Source: Spirosoma fluviale (GTDB taxonomy: Bacteria; Bacteroidota; Bacteroidia; Cytophagales; Spirosomataceae). Taken from it: a stretch of 64,000 nucleotides of DNA. Under the pieces are notes generated by a model that had not been told where the DNA came from, searched no databases, and worked only from the letters and a program-made list of their open reading frames with translations. Within the stretch, counting starts at the first letter, position 1. Each line of letters begins with the position of its first letter. Below are positions 7,746 to 17,309 of this stretch, one piece after another. The DNA lies in the NCBI RefSeq assembly GCF_900230225.1, contig NZ_OCNH01000002.1, positions 1,212,793-1,276,792 of the forward strand, in the 5' to 3' direction. The position numbers and the translations under genes are program-made.

Positions 7746-7770
7746 TGGTGGCCCATAAAAAGGGCCACCA
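7746..7770. terminator. GC-rich hairpin, possible terminator
   Basis: TGGTGGCCC and GGGCCACCA form a perfect 9-bp stem around the loop ATAAAAA. It lies downstream (minus strand) of the first precursor-peptide gene, about 270 bp away, and so may end that transcript. No U-tract follows on the minus strand, so this is tentative. Confidence 0.4.
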
Positions 7771-8042: not shown

Positions 8043-8189
8043 TCATCCCTCAGTACTGCCAAAGCCATCGACGGCTGAACCACCCTTAAGGGTGAGTTTT
8101 TTAACGTTGCCCAGCTTATTGAGCTTGGGCGATTTGTAGCTCCGTTTGGGCTGGGGTGTTACGAGGTTTATTTTTTTCGGGGGATTCAT
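8043..8189 (-). CDS. Lasso-peptide-like precursor peptide, copy A
   Basis: A 48-codon gene starts at the ATG 8189 and ends at 8043. Its leader contains RSYKSPKLNKLGNVKKLTL, which places Tyr, Pro, Leu, Gly and Thr at -17, -14, -12, -8 and -2 if cleavage follows Leu34. That is the spacing of characterised lasso leaders. The predicted core is KGGSAVDGFGSTEG, with Asp at position 7 as a possible ring acceptor. It starts 37 bp downstream of a T9SS-secreted protein gene (8227-9459). The leader is nearly identical to copies B-D, but the last residues differ (STEG rather than SFG). No maturation enzymes are encoded nearby. The peptide could instead be an unmodified secreted or regulatory peptide. Confidence 0.75.
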   Translation of the reverse strand: MNPPKKINLVTPQPKRSYKSPKLNKLGNVKKLTLKGGSAVDGFGSTEG

Positions 8190-8226
8190 GAACTAGGTGA
8201 TAAGTGAATAAAATAAATGAGACTAC

Positions 8227-9459
8227 CTACGGCCTGACCATCCGCACCAACCAAGCCGGCCCATTGGTCGTTTCGACCCGCAGCAGGTAGCTCCCGGCCG
8301 GCAGCTCGCCCAGCCCTACCCCGTTGAGCACCCCCGGTTTATCGGTCTGCCGCACCACGCGCCCCAACCCGTCAATGATCTGATAGGCGGTGTAGGTGAT
8401 GGCTGGCTCAATGGTGGCTTCGCCCCCGGAAGTCAACGGGTTGGGAAACAAAACGGACGGGTTGTTCTCCCGGCTGAGGGCAATGATCGAGCTACGGGTC
8501 TGAGTGCCGTTGCGGTCGGTCTGCACCAGCCGGTAGTAGTTGATACCGGCCAGGGGTTTCCCATCCAGATAGCTGTAGGTCAAGGCAAGATGCGAGTTTC
8601 CCCCGGTAGCCTGACTGGGTATGGTGGCGATGGACTCAAAGCTGCGGGCATCCCGGCTGCGCTCGATCTGGAAGTGGGCGTTTTCCACCTCCATGGCCGT
8701 TTGCCAGCCCAACAGTGCCCCCGCTTCGGTCATGCGCCCATTGAAATAAAGCAATGTGACGGGCAACGGGGTATTTAGACTCACTGACTCCGTAGGCTGA
8801 CTGTAGGCGGTGTTGGTGGTGGTGAGCAGGCAACGGTAGAAAAGGGACGACGTTACATTGGTGGTGTAGGTGGCTCCCGTTGCGCCGGGTAGGTTAGTCC
8901 AGGCACTGTTGTTGGACGATGACTGCCACTGGTATTGCATCACCGACCCGCTGACGTTGACCGACAACGTGGTGGGGTAGTTGTAGCTGCCCGAGGTGGC
9001 ACTGGCTCGCGTAATCAACCCCTGCACAGTGCCCGTCAGCAGTCCATTGTTGATCAGGTTGGCGCTGGCCGATAGATCGGAGCGGATATACAGCTGGCCG
9101 TTGGCGTTGAGGGCGGCATTGGCGTTGAGCGTGGCCGTGCCCGTCACCGATAGCAGGCTGTTGAGGGTGCTGGTTCCGGTATTGTGATTGAAAACCACTG
9201 TAGCTACGGTGGCCATGCCGGTGCCGCCGTAGGTGACAGGGCCGGTGAACTGACCGGCAGCAAGGCTGAGCGAACTGTTGTTAGTCAAGGCACCGCCCCC
9301 GTAGACGAGCTGCACGGCCCCGGTACCGCCCACGCGGGTATTGGGGCTAATGGTCAGAGTAGGCTGGGCCATTGTGCTGCCGACGATGGCCAGCAGCAGC
9401 CCGAGCGCCAGCATCCGGTTAGGCCGGAGAGCAACCGCTAAGCGTAAAGGATGATGCAT
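8227..9459 (-). CDS. T9SS-secreted surface protein with C-terminal sorting domain
   Basis: I take the start at 9459, where a signal peptide begins (MLALGLLLAIVGSTMAQ). The frame is open farther upstream but encodes no signal there. The 410-residue product has an N-terminal beta-rich repeat region rich in T, N and G (TGTATLNANAALNANGQLYI), an immunoglobulin-like segment (VMQYQWQSSSNNSAWTNLPG), and a beta-sandwich of the kind that precedes T9SS tails (LPVTLLYFNG, FQIERSRDARSFESI). It ends in a type A sorting domain (VLFPNPLTSGG, GSYLLRVE). It should be exported across both membranes and attached to the surface. The precursor peptide copy A follows after 37 bp. Its sorting domain differs from that of the three genes at 12066-17309. 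Confidence 0.85.
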   Translation of the reverse strand: MHHPLRLAVALRPNRMLALGLLLAIVGSTMAQPTLTISPNTRVGGTGAVQLVYGGGALTNNSSLSLAAGQFTGPVTYGGTGMATVATVVFNHNTGTSTLNSLLSVTGTATLNANAALNANGQLYIRSDLSASANLINNGLLTGTVQGLITRASATSGSYNYPTTLSVNVSGSVMQYQWQSSSNNSAWTNLPGATGATYTTNVTSSLFYRCLLTTTNTAYSQPTESVSLNTPLPVTLLYFNGRMTEAGALLGWQTAMEVENAHFQIERSRDARSFESIATIPSQATGGNSHLALTYSYLDGKPLAGINYYRLVQTDRNGTQTRSSIIALSRENNPSVLFPNPLTSGGEATIEPAITYTAYQIIDGLGRVVRQTDKPGVLNGVGLGELPAGSYLLRVETTNGPAWLVRMVRP

Positions 9460-9498
9460 ATAAATGAAGGAAATATATGAATACCATAGAGAAAAGTA

Positions 9499-9529
9499 CC
9501 GGGCTGACTGACAGTGGCCGTCAGCCCGG
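9499..9529 (-). terminator. Hairpin between the collagen-like gene and the T9SS gene
   Basis: CCGGGCTGAC and GTCAGCCCGG form a perfect 10-bp stem with an 11-nt loop. It lies 175 bp after the stop of the collagen-like gene (9704) and 40 bp before the start of the next gene (9459), in the position expected for a terminator or an mRNA 3' end. Confidence 0.55.
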
Positions 9530-9703
9530 TTGTTGATGTTATTTTTCGATAACAAAGCGGTACAACGAGGTTCGGTTATGACCGGTGAAGGAGAACCCGA
9601 ATGCCGCCAACAGGACAAGCGAATGAAAATTCACCTACTCTATCATCGGCTTTTTGGGTCCCGCCGTTACGGTTATACTGACTTGAAAGAAGGAGTTCAC
9701 CCT

Positions 9704-11320
9704 CTACCGTATCCGCACAATTTGCACGTTGCTACTACCATCGGTGCTGGTGTAGGCAATGGTACTGTCGCCGAACGACTGGGCGCGGAAGCTCAGGTTA
9801 TCACCTGCCGACAGATACACGACGGTTTGCAACAACGAGTGGTTTTTAAGGAATAAGCTGCTGCTCGAACTGTCGTATGTAGTGAAAGCAAGCGGATAAG
9901 TACCCGCGTTGGGCGACGTACCGAAACGGCTGTTCTTATCGAGTACCACTTGATAGCCAATATTGAAAGCCCCATTGGAGCCGGATGACACCCCCACGAA
10001 ATTTCCCGTAATCTGATACCAACCGGCTCCCTCGCTCCCCACAGTGAAGGTGGTGCCGTTCCAGGTGTTGCTACCCGTAAGGACGGCATTCGCTCCATTG
10101 CTGGATGGAAAGTTGAGCGTCGTAAAAGTTGACCCGGTGCTTAGCGACGAAATTGCCTGCTGTGAAGTGAAAGCTGTGCTAACTTCCACATTGGGGTAAG
10201 CCGTCGGTATAGAGGGGGAACCCGCCAAAAAGCCCCAGCTTGTGCTGCCACTGCCATTGGTTATGAGCACTTGCCCGTTCGTGCCCCGGCTGGTGGGTAA
10301 ACTGAAGCGGTTGCTGCCGCTGTTGACAAATACCCCGCTGCCGCTGAGATATACCCCGTTGCTGCTGCCGTTGATATCTACCCCGTTGCTGACATATACC
10401 CTGCTGCTGCTGCTGCCGTTGAGAAATACCCCGTTGCTGCTGCCGTCGATCAATACCCTGCTGCCGATGATATCTACCCCGCTGTTGCTCCAGCTTAGGG
10501 CCGTGTTGGTGCCGCCTGCGCCATAGCTCAGCTTACCACCCGTTAAGCCGGATAAATGGGGGCCGTCTGTGCTGGCATCATACTTCAGGAAATGGTTGCC
10601 GTTGCTGGCTGCGCGTAAACGCAGCGCATTGTCGTTCAGGCCGAGACTGCCGGTACCGGCAAAATCCAGCGTGTTGCCGCCCAATGTAATGGTGCGGTTG
10701 CCGGTTAGCGTTCCGTCGGTCGTGTAGAGACTGGCCCCACCGCCCGCGCTGGGCGTTGTCCACTGCGTGTTGTAGTTGGCGCCGTCAATTTTGCTCAACA
10801 CCTGCCCGGTGGTGCCGCCCGTGGGTACGCCCTGTCCGGCGGGGCCGGTAGCACCTTCCGGGCCAGTTGCTCCTGTTAAGCCGGTATCACCTTTATTACC
10901 CTGTATGCCTGGCGCTCCTGTTGATCCAGCCGGGCCAGTTAGGCCAATGGGGCCGGTCGCTCCTTCGGGTCCTGTAGCACCAGGTAGACCAGTCGCGCCA
11001 GTGTCGCCTTTGTCCCCTTTCGGGCCGGTAGTTCCCGACGCACTCAGCGAGGTCCAGGCCGTGCCATTGTAGAAATAGAATCCGGCAGTGCCGTCAGTCT
11101 GGTACACCAACAGACCCGTAGCCGGGCTACTGATGAGTCCACGCTGCTGGGCGTTCATACGGGGCACGAGTATACCCTGGTTAGTACTCTTTACGTCGAG
11201 CAGGGCCGAGCCGTCGGCCGTTGAGCCATCGGTGTTGATCGACAGCGAGCCGGTCTGAGCCTTGGCTGAATAAAGACTGCTCAGGGTGAGCAGCGCAAAA
11301 AGTAAACGTGTACAGGACAT
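9704..11320 (-). CDS. Secreted collagen-like protein with C1q/TNF-like C-terminal domain
   Basis: The start at 11320 gives a good signal peptide ([17 protein letters not shown]) and 538 residues. After a region typical of Bacteroidota surface proteins ([17 protein letters not shown]), residues about 99-165 are uninterrupted Gly-X-Y triplets ([19 protein letters not shown]). A degenerate repeat of [12 protein letters not shown] type follows at about 265-340. The last 150 residues resemble a C1q-like jelly roll ([40 protein letters not shown]). Collagen stalks carrying such heads usually form trimeric surface fibres. There is no evident T9SS tail. The region upstream duplicates the tail of the AraC gene at 19314, suggesting it once lay behind a similar regulator. 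Confidence 0.85.
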
Positions 11321-11435
11321 AGAAGAGGGAGTAGATATGAAAAAGCGAGTAAACAGATAAGAACGGGAAATACGGTTGTCAGACTGGCATAGTGAATCCA
11401 GTACCACGTGCACGGGGTAGGAGATGACATAAAAC

Positions 11436-11562
11436 CAGGTAAATGCTTAATGGAATCGTACAGACAAATTTTCTGTCAAAGAACACGCTTTAAAGACCAA
11501 GACTCCGTCATATTTGGGCCACCCTTCCAGAATAGATCAATTAAATGGCAAATAGTGTTGCA
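11436..11562 (-). repeat. Duplicate of the region following the AraC regulator gene
   Basis: This stretch matches 19205-19313 closely (shared AAGACTCCGTCATATTTGGG, then CCAGAATAGAT and AAATGGCAAATAGTGTTG). In both places it lies between the 3' end of an AraC coding sequence and the start of a cargo gene, here the collagen-like gene and there the cupin gene. It therefore marks a duplicated regulator-plus-leader unit and may include the cargo promoter. Confidence 0.75.
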
Positions 11563-11650
11563 TTACGTTCGGTTGGCCATGTACTCAGTGGGCGTTTGCT
11601 GGTAGCATTGCCAGAAAACAGTGATAAAATGTGAGGGTGTGCTAAACCTA
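11563..11650 (-). pseudogene. 3' fragment of an AraC-type regulator gene
   Basis: The reverse strand encodes RFSTPSHFITVFWQCYQQTP then TEYMANRT and a stop at 11563. This matches the last 28 residues of the intact regulator at 19314-19721 (GFSSPSHLTTVFRQYYQQTP). Everything upstream of the final helix-turn-helix is missing, and the fragment is fused to the remnant at 11648-11683. It is a decayed duplicate. Confidence 0.75.
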
Positions 11651-11683
11651 TTCGGAAAGTCGGGCCACGACGGGCCGGGGCAT
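11648..11683 (-). pseudogene. 5' remnant of a cassette secreted-protein gene
   Basis: An ATG at 11683 begins MPRPVVARLSE and then meets a stop at 11648. The first eight codons equal the start of the secreted-protein gene at 12066-13931 (MPRPVVARP). The surrounding DNA (11660-12065) is a near-copy of 13905-14313. The copy breaks off here and joins the AraC fragment, so a cassette was deleted between two repeats. Confidence 0.65.
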
Positions 11684-11735
11684 GATAGCTGGTAGAGGCA
11701 GGTACACGGTTACAGGAAAAGGTGATGTATTGGAC

Positions 11736-11774
11736 AAGGTCAGCCCCTTACCGCTTGGGCAAAGGGCTGGCCTT
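11736..11774 (-). terminator. Conserved hairpin downstream of precursor peptide copy B
   Basis: AAGGTCAGCCCCTT and AAAGGGCTGGCCTT form a long stem with a GC loop. The matching hairpin at 13984-14022 reads AAGGCCAGCCCCT on the left arm: the single change turns a G-U pair into a G-C pair and keeps the stem. It lies about 115 nt after the stop of copy B, so it could be a terminator or processed mRNA end. Confidence 0.5.
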
Positions 11775-11888
11775 AGTAATGACTGGGCTTGCCCCAACCG
11801 GACAGGCTCAATTTTTTAGTGATCTGGGCGTTCCAGCCCTGAGCAGGCCTCGTTGATACGCCCGGTCGACCAGGCACTCACCGCTCCC

Positions 11889-12032
11889 TCAACCAAACGA
11901 GCCAAAGCCATCGACGGATGAGCCACTCTTGAGGGTGAGTTTTTTGACGTTGCCCAGCTTATTGAGCTTGGGCGATTTGTAGCTCCGTTTGGGCTGGGGT
12001 GTTACGAGGGCTATTTTTTTCTGGGGATTCAT
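11889..12032 (-). CDS. Lasso-peptide-like precursor peptide, copy B
   Basis: The ATG at 12032 opens 47 codons. The leader ends RSYKSPKLNKLGNVKKLTL, with Tyr -17, Pro -14, Leu -12, Gly -8 and Thr -2 relative to a core KSGSSVDGFGSFG. A Lys1-Asp7 isopeptide would give a 7-residue ring, the smallest ring size I know for lasso peptides. The gene begins 33 bp after the stop of the T9SS protein gene at 12066-13931, with no Shine-Dalgarno sequence, as is common in Bacteroidota. Compared with copies C and D most nucleotide differences are silent, which argues that the peptide is translated. Maturation genes are absent from the window. Confidence 0.78.
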   Translation of the reverse strand: MNPQKKIALVTPQPKRSYKSPKLNKLGNVKKLTLKSGSSVDGFGSFG

Positions 12033-12065
12033 ACACTAGAAGAGGATTGGATAAAACAACTGAGA

Positions 12066-13931
12066 CTACTGAACCACTAACCGGTGCTGGCGGGTTTGCC
12101 CCCGCTCCTCTACCGTCAGTACATACACGCCTGCAGCCAGAGAGCCACTGGCTTTCAAGAGCAGATTACCCGACTGGAGGCCCATTTTCTGGAGGGGGAT
12201 GGCCCGTCCCTGGGGGCTAAAAAAGCCCAGAATGGCCGTCTGAGGTTCATCCAGCCGCAGCACAAAGCCGCCTTCATGGACGATGGGGTTCGGATACACC
12301 CCGTAGGCTTCATCCCGAATCACCACCGAAACGGCGGGATAGACCGTGGCCTTGCCCGACAAATCCGTTTGGGTGAGCCGGTAGTACGAGGTACCCATAA
12401 AAGGCGTCTGGTCGGTGAACTGGTAGTGTTTGATGGCCTGACTGTTGGTGGCCTCGGCGGGGATTTGGCCCACGGTCTCGAAGTGAACAAGGTCTTTGCT
12501 ACGGTCGAGTTGAAAGCCTTTGTTATCGGTTTCCAGGGAGGTCGTCCAGGCTAGATCCACGCTGTGGTTGGGCTGGGCCTGGGCCGTAAAGGATACTAAA
12601 GCTACGGGTAAGGGAGCGGTTACACTGAGCGATGCGGTGGCTGTTGCCGTTGCCGAACAGCCCGGTGTGGTGCCCGTGACCGAGTAGGAGGTGGCCGTGG
12701 TCAGGTTGGTGACCACCAGGGGGTTGGCGCTTGTGCCATTGTTCCAGCTATAGTTGGTGGCACCTGTGGCGGTGAGGGTGACGTTGCCACCTGATGTGAT
12801 GGTCAGGCTGGGCGTGGCGGTAATGCTCACCGAAAGGCTACCGGTTGCAGTCATCACTTGATTGGTACCCGATTGAGCCACAGCCACAAACGTCCCGTTG
12901 CCGTAGGTAACCGAGTTCCAATAATTAGCCTGTGCCGCCGTTTGGGCCGTCCAGGTGATACCATCCGGGGAGGTCATTATCTGGTTGGTGCCCGACCGAG
13001 CTACGGCCACAAACAGGCCATTGCCGTAGGTGACCGAGCGCCAAGGATTAGCCTCAACCGCCGTTTGGGCCGTCCAGGTGATACCATCCGGGGAGGTCAT
13101 TACCTGATTGGTGCCCGATTGAGCCACAGCCACAAACAGGCCATTACCGTAGGTAACTGAAATCCATGTGTTAGCTTCAGCCGCCATTTGGGCAGTCCAG
13201 GTGATACCATCGGGGGAGGTCATCACCCGATTAGTTCCCGATTGAGCCACGGCCACAAACAGACCCTGGTTGTAGGTGACCGAAGACCATGCGTTAGCCT
13301 CAGCCGCCGTTTGACCTGTCCAGGTGATGCCATCGGGGGAGGTCATCACCCGATAGGTACCAGTACCAGCCACGGCCACAAACAGACCCTTGCCGTAGGT
13401 GACCGAGTTCCATGTATTTAACTCAGCCGAGGTTTGACCTGTCCAGGTGATGCCATCGGGGGAGGTCATCACTTGAAAGCCTGATCGAGCCACGGCCACA
13501 AACAGGCCGTTGCCGTAAGTGACCGAGAGCCATACAGCGCTCCCAGCCGCCGTTCGGGCTGTCCAGTTGATACCATCAGGGGAGGTCATCACCTGGTTGG
13601 TGAGGGGACCTTGCATACCCACAGCGACGAACAAGCCATTGCCATACGTGACCGAAGTCCAATTACCCTCAACCGCCGTTTGGGCTGTCCAGGTTGAGCC
13701 ATCGGAGGCACAGGCCAGCGTCTGGCCAAATACGGCCAGTGGGGAGACCAACGTAATCCCAGCCCACAGCACCAGCCAGACTACCAAACGCAGACCGCTC
13801 AGGGGCCGTTGTCGATGCGGGGGGGGGCCAATGGGCTGGCAACCCAAAACCGGGTAGAGGGCTGAGTTAACATCGGCTCCTTGCCGAAACGCCGAGACTG
13901 ATAAAGGCCGGGCCACGACGGGCCGGGGCAT
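12066..13931 (-). CDS. T9SS-secreted beta-propeller-like repeat protein
   Basis: I choose the start at 13931 (MPRPVVARPLSVSAF), because the upstream extension to 14045 overlaps the hairpin conserved at 11736. The 621-residue product has a late membrane-like signal (VVWLVLWAGITLVSPLAVFG). Seven repeats of about 41 residues follow, each built on W-x-S-V-T-Y-G-N-G-L-F-V-A-V and MTSPDGITWT, consistent with propeller blades. An Ig-like segment (TPSLTITSGGNVTLTATGA) and then a 175-residue C-terminal module (SFTAQAQ to RLVVQ) end in a T9SS type A tail (YGVYPNPIVHEGGFVLRLDE). That module is almost identical in the genes at 14314 and 15799. Precursor peptide copy B follows after 33 bp. Confidence 0.86.
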   Translation of the reverse strand: MPRPVVARPLSVSAFRQGADVNSALYPVLGCQPIGPPPHRQRPLSGLRLVVWLVLWAGITLVSPLAVFGQTLACASDGSTWTAQTAVEGNWTSVTYGNGLFVAVGMQGPLTNQVMTSPDGINWTARTAAGSAVWLSVTYGNGLFVAVARSGFQVMTSPDGITWTGQTSAELNTWNSVTYGKGLFVAVAGTGTYRVMTSPDGITWTGQTAAEANAWSSVTYNQGLFVAVAQSGTNRVMTSPDGITWTAQMAAEANTWISVTYGNGLFVAVAQSGTNQVMTSPDGITWTAQTAVEANPWRSVTYGNGLFVAVARSGTNQIMTSPDGITWTAQTAAQANYWNSVTYGNGTFVAVAQSGTNQVMTATGSLSVSITATPSLTITSGGNVTLTATGATNYSWNNGTSANPLVVTNLTTATSYSVTGTTPGCSATATATASLSVTAPLPVALVSFTAQAQPNHSVDLAWTTSLETDNKGFQLDRSKDLVHFETVGQIPAEATNSQAIKHYQFTDQTPFMGTSYYRLTQTDLSGKATVYPAVSVVIRDEAYGVYPNPIVHEGGFVLRLDEPQTAILGFFSPQGRAIPLQKMGLQSGNLLLKASGSLAAGVYVLTVEERGQTRQHRLVVQ

Positions 13932-13983
13932 GATAGCTGGTAGAGGCAGGTACACGGTTACAGGAAAAGGTGATGTATTGGAC

Positions 13984-14022
13984 AAGGCCAGCCCCTGACC
14001 GCTTGGGCAAAGGGCTGGCCTT
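13984..14022 (-). terminator. Conserved hairpin downstream of precursor peptide copy C
   Basis: AAGGCCAGCCCCT pairs with AAAGGGCTGGCCTT across a GC-rich loop. It is the counterpart of the hairpin at 11736-11774, with one compensatory change. It sits about 115 nt after the stop of copy C and 50 bp before the next gene's chosen start at 13931. Confidence 0.5.
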
Positions 14023-14136
14023 AATAATGAATAGGCTTGCCCCAACCGGACAGGCTCAATCTTTTAGTGACCTGGGCGTTCCAGCCCTGAACAGGTCTCG
14101 TTGATACGCCCGGTCGACCAGGCACTCACCGCTCCC

Positions 14137-14280
14137 TCAACCAAACGAGCCAAAGCCATCGACGGATGAGCCACTCTTAAGGGTGAGTTTTTTGACGTTG
14201 CCCAGCTTATTGAGCTTGGGCGATTTGTAGCTCCGTTTGGGCTGGGGTGTTAGGAGGGCTATTTTTTTCTGGGAATTCAT
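14137..14280 (-). CDS. Lasso-peptide-like precursor peptide, copy C
   Basis: The ATG at 14280 opens 47 codons. The product differs from copy B only at residue 3 (Ser for Pro) and residue 10 (Leu for Val), both near the N-terminus and away from the recognition motif. The core is again KSGSSVDGFGSFG. It lies 33 bp after the stop of the T9SS protein gene at 14314. The following 230 bp, including the hairpin at 13984-14022, are shared with the region after copy B, showing that peptide gene and downstream DNA were duplicated together. Confidence 0.77.
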   Translation of the reverse strand: MNSQKKIALLTPQPKRSYKSPKLNKLGNVKKLTLKSGSSVDGFGSFG

Positions 14281-14313
14281 ACACTAGAAGAGGATTGGAT
14301 AAAACAACTGAGA

Positions 14314-15444
14314 CTACTGAACCACCAACCGGTGCTGGCGGGTTTGGCCCCGCTCCTCCACCGTCAGTACATACACGCCTGTAGCTAGGGAGCCGCTGGC
14401 TTTCAAGAGGAGGTTGCCCGACTGGAGGCCCATTTTCTGGAGGGGGATGGCCCGTCCCTGGGGGCTAAAAAAGCCCAGAATGGCCGTCTGGGGTTCATCC
14501 AGACGTAGCACAAAGCCGCCCTCGCTAACCACCGGGTTCGGATACACCCCGTAAGCGTCCTCCCGAATCACCACCGAAACGGCGGGATAGACCGTGGCCT
14601 TGCCCGACAAATCCGTTTGGGTGAGCCGGTAGTACGAGGTGCCCGTGAAAGGCGTCTGGTCGGTGAACTGGTAGTGTTTGATGGCCTGACTGTTGGCGGC
14701 CTCGGCGGGGATTTGGCCAACTGTTTCGAAGTGGATAAGGTCTTTGCTGCGGTCGAGTTGAAAGCCTTTGTTATCGGTTTCCAGGGAAGTCGTCCAGTTG
14801 AGTTGGACGGAGTTTTGGGTTGTTGTTTTGGCTTGGAAGTTGATCAGCGTCACGGGCAGGGCCGAGGCCACGGACTTCATGACTTTGCTGTCTTGAGAAA
14901 CGGCCACAAATACCCCATTGCCGTAGGTAACCGAATACCAGGCATCATTGGTGGCGGCTATTTGGTTGGTCCAAGTGATTCCATCGGGGCTGGTCATGAC
15001 TTTGCCGCTGGACGAAACGGCCACAAATACCCCATTGCCGTAGGTGACTGAAGACCATTGATTATTGGATGCGGCTGTTCGGCTGGTCCAGGTGCTGCCA
15101 TTTGGGCTGGTCATGACTTTGCCGTCGTACGAAACGGCCACAAATACCCCATTGCCGTAGGTGACTGAAGACCAGACACTAGTGGATGCGGCTGTTCGGC
15201 TGGTCCAGGTGACCCCATCGGGGCTGGTCATGACCGGGCCGTATTGGGAAATGGCCACAAATACCCCATTGCCGTAGGTAACCGACTGCCAGACATTAGT
15301 GGATGCGGCTGTTTGACTAGTCCAGGTGGTTTGGGCGTGAGTGGCTAAACAGCTCAGCAGCCAGAAGGCTAAGACCCAGCGGGTAGAGGTAAGCAAGTTC
15401 AACACGGTTTCTCGCTTGGGAGCGATACGTAAAAAATGAGCCAT
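14314..15444 (-). CDS. T9SS-secreted short beta-propeller-like repeat protein
   Basis: The start at 15444 (MAHFLRIAPKRE) places a signal ending WLLSCLATHAQ at residue about 38; an ATG 18 codons upstream is also possible. Four repeats of about 41 residues follow (VWQSVTYGNGVFVAI, MTSPDGVTWTS), a shorter version of the array in the gene at 12066. The C-terminal 175 residues (LPVTLINFQAK to RLVVQ) form the shared module with a T9SS type A tail (YGVYPNPVVSEGGFVLRLDE). Four blades are few for a closed propeller, so it may oligomerise or be partly deleted. Precursor peptide copy C begins 33 bp downstream. Confidence 0.85.
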   Translation of the reverse strand: MAHFLRIAPKRETVLNLLTSTRWVLAFWLLSCLATHAQTTWTSQTAASTNVWQSVTYGNGVFVAISQYGPVMTSPDGVTWTSRTAASTSVWSSVTYGNGVFVAVSYDGKVMTSPNGSTWTSRTAASNNQWSSVTYGNGVFVAVSSSGKVMTSPDGITWTNQIAATNDAWYSVTYGNGVFVAVSQDSKVMKSVASALPVTLINFQAKTTTQNSVQLNWTTSLETDNKGFQLDRSKDLIHFETVGQIPAEAANSQAIKHYQFTDQTPFTGTSYYRLTQTDLSGKATVYPAVSVVIREDAYGVYPNPVVSEGGFVLRLDEPQTAILGFFSPQGRAIPLQKMGLQSGNLLLKASGSLATGVYVLTVEERGQTRQHRLVVQ

Positions 15445-15537
15445 AGAAGGGAGAGAAGAAGTTGGCACCAAACGATTATTGGCCAATGCTTTGCGCAAAC
15501 CGGTTTTAAACAGTAGTGTAATTAGTGTTAACCAATG

Positions 15538-15604
15538 AGCCCCCTGAGTATTGATTGAGTGCGCCTATCAAGGACAGAGGCACTCAATGAATACTCAGGG
15601 GGCT
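15538..15604 (-). terminator. Strong hairpin terminator after precursor peptide copy D
   Basis: Left arm 15538-15566 (AGCCCCCTGAGTATT, then ATTGAGTGC) pairs with right arm 15578-15604 (GCACTCAAT, then AATACTCAGGGGGCT). There is one mismatch and a two-base bulge in a stem of about 25 bp. It begins 18 nt after the stop of copy D. It should end the transcript of the 17309-15622 unit, making each protein-peptide pair its own transcription unit. Confidence 0.7.
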
Positions 15605-15621
15605 ATTACAAAGCACATTCC

Positions 15622-15765
15622 TCAACCAAACGAGCCAAAGCCATCCACGGATGAACCACTCTTGAGGGTGAGTTTTTTAACGTTGCCCAGCTTATTGAGT
15701 TTGGGCGATTTGTAGCTCCGTTTGGGCTGGGGTGTTACGAGGGCTATTTTTTTCTGGGGATTCAT
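15622..15765 (-). CDS. Lasso-peptide-like precursor peptide, copy D
   Basis: The ATG at 15765 opens 47 codons giving exactly the copy B peptide, although the DNA differs at several third positions (GTC/GTT, GGC/GGT, GTC/GTG, AAG/AAA). This is what selection on the protein would leave. Leader and core are as in copy B (core KSGSSVDGFGSFG). It begins 33 bp after the C-terminal module of the frameshifted gene at 15799-17309 and is followed by the strong hairpin at 15538-15604. Confidence 0.78.
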   Translation of the reverse strand: MNPQKKIALVTPQPKRSYKSPKLNKLGNVKKLTLKSGSSVDGFGSFG

Positions 15766-15798: not shown

Positions 15799-17309
15799 CT
15801 ACTGAACCACCAACCGGTGTTGGCGGGTTTGCCCCCGCTCCTCCACCGTCAGTACATACACGCCCGCAGCCAGAGAGCCACTGGCTTTCAAGAGCAGGTT
15901 ACCCGACTGGAGGCCCATTTTCTGGAGGGGAATGGCCCTGCCCTGGGGGCTAAAAAAGCCCAGAATAGCTGTCTGAGGTTCATCCAGCCGAAGCACAAAC
16001 CCGGTTTCGTTGGCCACCGGGTTGGGGTAAACTCCGTAGGCTTCATCTCGAATGACTACTGAAACGGCGGGATAAACCGTGGCCTTGCCCGACAAATCCG
16101 TTTGGGTGAGCCGGTAGTACGAGGTGCCCGTGAAAGGCGTCTGGTCGGTGAACTGGTAGTGTTTGATGGCCTGACTGTTGGCGGCCTCGGCGGGGATTTG
16201 GCCCACGGTCTCGAAGTGAACAAGGTCTTTGCTGCGGTCGAGTTGAAAGCCTTTGTTATTGGTTTCCAGGGAGGTCGTCCAGGCCAGATCGACGGTGTGC
16301 TGGGTGGTGGCCGTAGCGGAGAAGGAGACCATGCTGACGGGCAGGGCGCCACTAGTATTGAGTCGGGCGATGCGGTTACGGCCCGTGCCGTTGTAGCCGG
16401 TAAACTGCCCCCCAATCAGGATCTTGCTATCCCCTGCACCGCTACACTCTGAACACCACTATTGGCCCCCGTGCCGGGGTTGAAGCCCGTGTCCAGACTG
16501 CCATCGGCGTTCAGGCGGGCGATGCGGTTGCGGCTCGTGCCGTTGTAGGTGCTAAATTCTCCTCCAATAAGGATCTTGCCATCCCCCTGCACCGCCACAC
16601 TAGCAACATTACTACTGGGGCCCGTGCCGGGGTTGAAGCCCGTGTCCAGACTGCCATCGGCGTTCAAGCGAGCGATATAGTTGCGCCCCGTGCCGTTGTA
16701 GGTGGTAAAGGTCCCTCCAATCAGGATCTTGCCATCCCCCTGCACCGCCATACTATAAACATTACTATTGGCTCCCGTGCCGGGGTTGAAGCCCGTGTCC
16801 AGACTGCCATCGGCGTTCAAGCGAGCGATATAGTTGCGCCCCGTGCCGTTGTAGGTGGTAAAGGTCCCTCCAATCAGGATCTTGCCATCCCCCTGCACCG
16901 CCACACTAGTAACAGTACTACTGGGGCCTGTGCCGGGATCGAAGCCCGTGTCCAGAGTGCCATCGGCGTTCAAGCGAGCGATATAGTTGCGGCCCGTGCC
17001 GTTGTAGGTGGTAAAGGTCCCTCCAATCAGGATCTTGCCGTTCCCCTGCACCACCATACTCTGAACAGTACTAGTGGTCCCATCCCCGTTGCCAAAGCCC
17101 ACATCGGTGGGGTTAAAGGTGGGGTCGATACTGCCATCCTGGGCCTTAGACAGACCCGTGCCGATCAGCAACAGGGCCAGCCAGCAGGTCAACCGCCGGA
17201 TAGTTCGTAGCCAGCCGGTGCCGCTCCCTGAGCGGGCCGGGGTTTGGGTGGTGAGTGGTTGGGGAGTGGATACTCCCCGCAAGCGGGCAGACTTTAGTGT
17301 TGGTTGCAT
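15799..17309 (-). pseudogene. T9SS-secreted delta-60 repeat protein gene, frameshifted in a G-run
   Basis: The start at 17309 gives a signal with TCWLALLLIGTGLSKAQ. Five repeats of about 56 residues follow (DGKILIGGTFTTYNGTGRNY, IARLNADGSLDTGFNPGTG), matching the delta-60 beta-propeller repeat. At 16431-16434 the codons for VQGDGKIL have only four G where the other repeats have five. Translation shifts and stops after SVAVQGIARS. The sixth repeat and the C-terminal module (MVSFSATATTQHTVDLAWTT to RLVVQ, T9SS tail YGVYPNPVANETGFVLRLDE) continue in another frame to 15799. With one G restored the gene would be open throughout. It could be a mutation, a phase-variable run or a sequencing error. 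Confidence 0.82.

Follow-up and report, generated by a model that had tools for sequence, protein, structure and literature searches.

The stretch of DNA analyzed here (the window) comprises 64,000 nucleotides (nt) of the genome of Spirosoma fluviale (assembly GCF_900230225.1, contig NZ_OCNH01000002.1, positions 1,212,793 to 1,276,792) and carries four small open reading frames (ORFs) on the minus strand, copies A to D, which a sequence-only reading had proposed to be precursor genes of a lasso-like peptide. All four are translated cleanly and encode near-identical peptides of 47 to 48 amino acids (aa; Table 1). The peptide of copy C differs from those of B and D at two residues (P3S and V10L), and the core of copy A has an end unlike that of B to D. 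The leader residues Tyr18, Pro21, Leu23, Gly27 and Thr33 and the core from Lys35 were confirmed as described in that reading, an arrangement presumably similar to the leader of fusilassin. The NCBIfam lasso leader model NF033521 (Tyr at −17, Pro at −14, Thr at −2), which had been proposed as a check, was reached narrowly by all four copies, with 19.3 to 19.5 bits at a cut-off of 19.

Each of the four precursors starts 33 to 37 nt after the stop codon of an ORF ending in a type A sorting domain of the type IX secretion system (T9SS). These domains score 29.0 to 31.9 bits with TIGR04183 (cut-off 23) and stay below the PF18962 cut-off of 27 in all four cases; the genes upstream of the precursors are predicted to encode T9SS type A cargo. 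These cargo genes, like the PorU2 and lipoprotein genes described below, were missed by the sequence-only reading. Upstream of copy D, the sorting-domain ORF and a DUF5122 beta-propeller ORF lie in different frames, so this cargo gene may be frameshifted, and the propeller may form its N-terminal part. No terminator-like site was found in the cargo-precursor spacers of the window in a consensus scan; both genes are presumably co-transcribed. The promoter and terminator scan as a whole gave no clear excess over shuffles (5 against 7.2; 16 against 12.0, standard deviation 3.7).

Table 1. Features of the precursor loci in the window and of the enzyme cluster on contig C4. Positions of the cluster genes are counted within locus L020 (C4:398000-415000).
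Feature	Location	Positions	Strand	Evidence and remarks
Terminator-like hairpin with T-run	Window	7746..7770	-	Starts 273 nt past copy A; based on a consensus match alone, such matches not clearly above shuffles
Lasso precursor copy A	Window	8043..8189	-	48 aa; predicted core KGGSAVDGFGSTEG; NF033521 19.5 bits
169-nt block	Window	8058..8226	-	Matches B and D over precursor, spacer and the stop codon of their cargo; 89% identity
T9SS cargo gene of copy A (predicted)	Window	8227..9618	-	TIGR04183 30.9 bits, cut-off 23; stop codon 37 nt before precursor ATG
Lasso precursor copy B	Window	11889..12032	-	47 aa; predicted core KSGSSVDGFGSFG; NF033521 leader match
T9SS cargo gene of copy B (predicted)	Window	12066..14045	-	EPTP/DUF6242-type repeats, C-terminal sorting domain; TIGR04183 29.0 bits
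Lasso precursor copy C	Window	14137..14280	-	47 aa; core identical to copy B; NF033521 leader match
T9SS cargo gene of copy C (predicted)	Window	14314..15498	-	Repeats related to copy B cargo; TIGR04183 29.6 bits
Lasso precursor copy D	Window	15622..15765	-	47 aa; peptide identical to copy B; NF033521 leader match
Sorting-domain ORF upstream of copy D	Window	15799..16332	-	TIGR04183 31.9 bits
DUF5122 beta-propeller ORF upstream of the D sorting-domain ORF	Window	16416..17309	-	Other frame
PorU2	L020	780-4100	+	NF052324 1003 bits, cut-off 450
Lipoprotein	L020	4097-4798	-	
Cyclase	L020	4963-6906	+	Best NCBIfam model NF033535, 325.7 bits; PF00733 115 bits
Nucleotidyltransferase	L020	6913-8085	-	PF14907
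B2 protease	L020	8144-8581	-	NF033537 74.9 bits, cut-off 33
B1/PqqD (RRE)	L020	8553-8846	-	PF05402 65.7 bits, cut-off 23.4
Lasso precursor, C4 copy	L020	9036-9176	-	
T9SS cargo gene of the C4 cluster (predicted)	L020	9219-10262	-	

In this S. fluviale genome (G000; 7.8 Mb, 99.98% complete), eight precursor copies were detected at E ≤ 10, of which four lie in the window, one each on contigs C13 and C4 and two on contig C10. The copies outside the window are diverged (56 to 74% identity). Common to the seven distinct peptides are Tyr18, Pro21, Leu-Gly-Asn-Val-Lys, Thr-Leu-Lys, Gly-Ser and Val-Asp-Gly-Phe-Gly. Seven of the eight copies are located directly 3′ of a T9SS sorting-domain gene, with spacers of 33 to 59 nt. 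Since sorting-domain genes make up only roughly 1% of the genes (67 TIGR04183 matches, 58 of them marked over the cut-off, at an estimated ~6,500 genes), a chance adjacency is very unlikely. The cargoes preceding the precursors are of several kinds, namely EPTP/DUF6242 repeats, DUF5122, ice-binding-like and DUF5050-like proteins. Among ten matches in the genome to the C-terminal 179 residues of the C4 cargo, the best six (at least 51% identity, query included) are all followed by a precursor, and the cargo of copy A is the weakest of the ten (34% identity). A conserved N-terminal cargo domain as common partner was not supported, as the N-terminus of the C4 cargo, the sole query used, matched only the cluster cargoes of the closest relatives. 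Two further TIGR04183 matches in the window, at about 40711 and 43634 (plus strand; G000:C8:1253503 and 1256426), have no precursor beside them.

For copies of different loci, the proportions of silent and replacement differences over the 28 codons from the leader Tyr were 0.44 to 0.93 (pS) and 0.09 to 0.24 (pN). Silent differences are thus many and replacements few, which shows that selection acts on the precursor peptide. The earlier statement that B, C and D differ mostly by silent changes holds for these three (1 to 5 silent and 0 replacement changes in the same codons). For copy A versus B to D, 2.5 to 3.5 silent stand against 4.5 replacement changes, so that a silent excess is not valid for copy A by raw count and selection is less clear there. 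Chance ORFs were ruled out by the copy number, the silent-change pattern between loci and the match to the leader model.

The window did not match models of B1, B2, cyclase, PorU2 or lipoprotein built from related clusters (E up to 0.1), in agreement with the sequence-only reading, which had found no maturation enzymes there and had considered either orphan precursors or enzymes encoded elsewhere. The second alternative is the one supported. A PqqD/RRE protein (B1), a B2 protease and a predicted lasso-type cyclase are encoded together beside another precursor on contig C4, where the enzyme part of the cluster (cyclase, nucleotidyltransferase, B2 and B1/RRE) spans about 403 to 407 kb, and orphan precursors are thereby ruled out. 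B1 scored 66.1 bits with NF033536, under the cut-off of 80, and resembles the solved RRE TbiB1 (E 2.4e-8). For B2, the Cys motif was found in 16 and the His motif in 15 of 17 rows. The PF00733 score of the cyclase lies above the cut-off of 21. Cyclases of the genus start with MGGIAG or MSGIAG in 24 of 26 rows and with MSGLAG in one, while one start was not read; glutamine-dependent synthetases carry a Cys near the N-terminus, where these cyclases have none. Precursors and enzymes very probably constitute a genuine lasso system acting in trans. The leader would recruit B1, B2 would cut before the core Lys, and the cyclase would join the core N-terminus to Asp7, yielding a predicted lasso topology with a 7-residue ring. 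The calculated [M+H]+ values of the cyclised cores are 1213.548 for copies B, C and D, 1250.565 for copy A, 1241.580 for the C4 and C13 copies and one C10 copy (C10b), and 1269.611 for the other C10 copy (C10a).

In one relative, an HPr-kinase-like gene is located between B2 and the nucleotidyltransferase (L118:11017-11949; PF07475 28.3 bits, under the cut-off of 33.3), and ORFs of similar size lie between B2 or B1 and the nucleotidyltransferase at L114, L126, L128, L132 and L134. This suggests a further product modification in the species that carry the gene. The S. fluviale cluster has no ORF of this size between B2 and the nucleotidyltransferase.

Among 36 genomes of the genus Spirosoma, the precursor (E ≤ 0.01) and the orthologous cyclase (E < 1e-200) were found in the same 27, a result opposite to the absence of RRE and cyclase from genome and relatives that the sequence-only reading had named as speaking against a lasso system. 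The nine genomes with neither are G010, G012, G016, G018, G019, G023, G025, G028 and G031, of which G019 has a distant cyclase (E 5e-23) and a B2 over the cut-off. B2 exceeds the cut-off in 26 of the 27 system-bearing genomes and is missing in G026 (80% complete). By single-sequence search, no B2 was found at nine cluster loci (L114-L117, L119, L120, L124, L129 and L133, with L129 reaching a contig end). All nine genomes concerned carry B2 elsewhere, which means that for roughly one genome in three B2 would likewise have to work from a separate locus. At L135 (G011), PorU2 is split over two ORFs and the cyclase contains an in-frame TAA, yet the genome has three precursor matches.

The core was compared over 54 distinct sequences from the rest of the genus, one of which (L071) is a long run-on reading. 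Lys1 was found in 52 and Gly3 and Ser4 in all 54, and Asp7, the acceptor proposed in the sequence-only reading, in 52 of the 53 that extend far enough to include it. Lys1 is absent from a four-residue core, HAGS, and from GAGSVNLDEG... (L138). The cluster of the latter is a separate one, with neither PorU2 nor cargo in the stretch examined; a second separate cluster (L137) has the core GEGSLNYDEG.... Within the genus, on small numbers, Lys cores accompany the T9SS-linked system and Gly cores the separate type of cluster, with exceptions both ways outside the genus. The idea that Lys1 strictly marks PorU2 linkage was only partly borne out in other genera: cores without the Lys-x5-Asp motif occur at three loci with PorU2 (L208, L211 and L226), and cores with it at ten loci without PorU2 (L186, L195, L196, L199, L207, L222, L223, L225, L230 and L231). 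Since the Thr-to-Lys spacing is variable in Dyadobacter, Gly1/Lys2/Asp8 is an equally good reading there. The HAGS core follows a lasso leader in two ORFs, L109 (G021:C37:99180) and L111 (G014:C25:60250), which lack an acceptor Asp; a short match at G001:C1:6798142 resembles them. These ORFs perhaps encode decoy leaders.

In the rest of the genus, the surroundings were examined for 63 of 67 precursor matches, for which a local search gave 64 precursor rows. A sorting-domain gene precedes the precursor in 46 of the 64 rows, corresponding to 46 of 60 assessable ones (three rows being cut by contig ends and one being a weak second row). The distance from the cargo end to the leader Tyr codon ranged between 65 and 191 nt, with one value of 406 nt. 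Judged by score to the S. fluviale model, 35 of these 46 sorting domains are close and 11 distant. At L070 (G008:C17), a precursor lies upstream of a TypA-like GTPase gene, with a B1-like ORF overlapping or close behind it (by eye).

In 26 of the 27 system-bearing genomes, the cyclase has a PorU2 match (NF052324) at a distance of 1.4 to 2.1 kb, and in the same 26 a lipoprotein gene is located between the two, with a strong match of 327 bits or more. PorU2-type matches elsewhere in the genome were found in 36 of 36 genus genomes, and a weaker lipoprotein paralogue (about 197 to 246 bits) in most, including the nine without the lasso system. The reading that we consider probable is that a lasso peptide matured in trans by the C4 cluster partners T9SS cargo, with the sortase-like PorU2 and the lipoprotein of the cluster as surface-side partners. 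The precursors would sit in operons of T9SS surface-protein genes, and the mature peptide would act with the cargo encoded just upstream, possibly in contact with it or with PorU2. The functional partnership of peptide, cargo and PorU2 as such is likely. The same loci could also be read as those of an ordinary secreted antimicrobial or signal, for which T9SS cargo, PorU2 and lipoprotein would serve as targets, as receptors or for immunity; one example would be a resistant PorU2 variant protecting against a lasso that inhibits the PorU-type enzymes of rivals. The majority of characterised lasso peptides target other bacteria, and linked, diverged PorU2 and lipoprotein genes besides unlinked paralogues would fit the pattern of a resistant target or of immunity. 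However, several kinds of cargo occur in one genome with nearly the same core, a multiplication unexpected of immunity genes, and the catalytic His and Cys of the C25 family are kept in 45 of 45 PorU2 rows (positions assigned by motif). An antimicrobial or signal is therefore considered unlikely.

The partnership is further illustrated by the PorU2 tree, which was calculated by a quick method with a midpoint root and in which G025 and G028 were not placed. Here, 24 cluster-linked rows of the genus group with three from Runella and Arundinibacter (support 100), and eight unlinked ones, from the S. fluviale genome and seven genomes without the lasso system, form one separate branch (support 100). 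In genera further away (L180-L182 and L191), the linked PorU2 fall outside both groups, so lasso linkage is not a property of one PorU2 branch. A third branch, sys2, contains five genomes, in which PorU2 adjoins a second precursor type and a lipoprotein (loci L139-L143 and L152-L155). A sorting-domain gene was found in four of the five and a diverged B1 or B2 nearby in four of five; the precursor cores read KGGSxxD, and no separate cyclase was found at the sys2 loci with the S. fluviale cyclase as query. G032 has a sys2-like set with PorU2 in three pieces.

The lipobox Cys of the lipoprotein is invariant in 21 rows, and three members compared with NCBIfam gave no match at E ≤ 0.1. Its AlphaFold model (mean pLDDT 74.3, pTM 0.66) has as best PDB matches a Parabacteroides lipoprotein, a YmcC-like protein and LolA proteins, at E 1e-4 or weaker and TM-scores of 0.42 or lower, which weakly suggests a LolA/YmcC-like fold. 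This fold, together with the conserved core and the presence of one precursor per cargo operon, would also suit an element that regulates T9SS export or controls its quality, such as a timing signal sensed when the cargo arrives at the surface. Neither a sensor nor a regulator was recognised among the cluster genes scanned, and such a role appears quite improbable. The unlinked lipoprotein paralogue of S. fluviale (G000:C4:1585393-1586079) has a T9SS sorting-domain match in the same orientation next to it (C4:1583766-1584005), and the lipoprotein family may therefore be linked to T9SS in general.

The duplication history was examined for the four copies of the window. Copies B, C and D share blocks of 680 to 889 nt with 90 to 95% identity, which cover precursor and sorting domain; in the cargo repeats upstream, B and C are related, and neither is related to D. 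The match of copy A to B and D ends at base 8226, adjoining the stop codon of its own cargo gene (8227-8229), and the cargo genes upstream of copy A and of B and D have no DNA match. The precursor, with or without the sorting domain, therefore seems to have been transferred as one block to the 3′ ends of T9SS cargo genes, either direction being possible. By a hitch-hiking explanation, one ancestral cargo-precursor pair would have been duplicated and the adjacency would be meaningless. B, C and D are indeed recent copies, and all sorting domains are homologous. Against this stand copy A, which joins the same precursor block to a gene with a far diverged sorting domain, and the adjacency kept across two score classes of sorting domains, in the sys2 PorU2 branch with its own precursors and in the swapped gene order of Runella. 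Hitch-hiking is thus regarded as highly improbable.

In a search of the family, a related cyclase was found in 91 of 222 genomes and 11 of 36 genera. From part of this family set, 56 cyclase loci of other genera were examined, 48 of which were distinct after removal of 8 duplicates; the genera include Runella, Fibrisoma, Arundinibacter, Persicitalea, Rhabdobacter and Dyadobacter. Of the 48 loci, 33 have a PorU2 match at a distance of up to about 10 kb, and 31 of those 33 have the lipoprotein. Precursors were found in 42 of the 48 loci, with a Lys-x5-Asp core in 37 of the 42. In Runella the gene order is precursor-cargo-cyclase, and the adjacency is still kept.

Several observations weigh against the reading of a lasso peptide that is matured in trans and partners T9SS cargo and PorU2. 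The co-occurrence of precursor and cyclase was counted within one genus without correction for phylogeny, G025 (82%) and G028 (71%) among the nine genomes lacking the system are incomplete, and gene neighbourhood is no proof of interaction. The cyclase stays under the curated cut-off of its best NCBIfam model (525 bits), the C4 precursor scores 17.7 bits with NF033521, under the cut-off of 19, and the scan of the cluster genes revealed no transporter or exporter. Upstream of the C13 copy there is no T9SS cargo gene but a Hint-like gene (PF01079 28.9 bits, cut-off 29.7), which is followed by what by eye is a terminator-like hairpin. Three intermediate cargo-like sorting domains of S. fluviale (36 to 38% identity) have no precursor, and 14 of the 60 assessable precursors in the rest of the genus have no T9SS cargo upstream, two of which, the second one of L060 and L095, lie between cyclase and lipoprotein. 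In G008, cyclase and precursor are kept and the linked PorU2 and lipoprotein are both absent. In the other genera, 15 of the 48 cyclase loci have no PorU2 nearby, and only 21 of the 48 contain a sorting-domain gene anywhere in the locus.

A covalent form of the partnership can be considered as well. PorU forms a thioester with the cut cargo, which is attacked by anionic lipopolysaccharide (A-LPS), other primary amines, amino acids or short peptides, according to a review of T9SS effectors (PMC10202324). The nearly invariant Lys of the predicted ring would offer an amine for such an attack, which makes a covalent tagging conceivable: PorU2 would cut the sorting domain and the Lys amine would attack the thioester, resulting in a cargo-lasso conjugate that leaves or stays on the cell. 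We regard this as a tentative possibility, and the data fit a non-covalent partner role equally well. It is just as speculative that the conjugate would replace or accompany the attachment to A-LPS known from Porphyromonas, with every cargo operon supplying a tag of its own.

Known lasso peptides are for the most part free small molecules, and many are antibiotics. That precursors are coupled to surface-protein genes, and the enzymes to a sortase-like T9SS component, across the genus and several related genera points to a role of a lasso peptide at the cell surface. PorU2, named only as a putative sortase in NCBIfam and not met under this name in a sample of the open-access T9SS literature, gains a testable partner, and remote lasso precursors may be sought behind T9SS cargo genes. 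In the open-access literature searched, no paper with both lasso peptides and type IX secretion was found; for a putative lasso cluster in Amoebophilus, the portion of the source available describes no T9SS link (PMC8831229). This suggests that a link between a lasso peptide and T9SS surface-protein secretion is so far undescribed.

Compared with known systems, the one found here is most similar to the split B1/B2/C lasso type with the NF033521 leader, with which it shares the YxxP...LG...LT leader, the RRE-type B1, the B2 protease, a predicted asparagine-synthetase-like cyclase without Cys at position 2 and an Asp acceptor in the core. Core position 1 of lasso peptides is usually a small residue, whereas it is Lys here. 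Unlike the split type, several remote precursors occur per genome, most of them behind a T9SS cargo gene, the cluster is paired with PorU2 and a lipoprotein, and no exporter was recognised among its scanned genes. The predicted 7-residue ring is similar to that of the xanthomonin-type lasso peptides, which come from another phylum and have another core; the predicted acceptor in S. fluviale is Asp. Paeninodin-type clusters carry an HPr-kinase and a nucleotidyltransferase for tailoring, of which the PF14907 nucleotidyltransferase is present in the S. fluviale cluster and the HPr-kinase-like gene in the scanned cluster of one relative. With T9SS type A sorting by the PorU/PorZ/A-LPS complex, as described in the review of T9SS effectors (PMC10202324), the system shares the type A sorting domains and a C25-family PorU relative with Cys and His, but it has PorU2 instead of PorU, linked to lasso biosynthesis.

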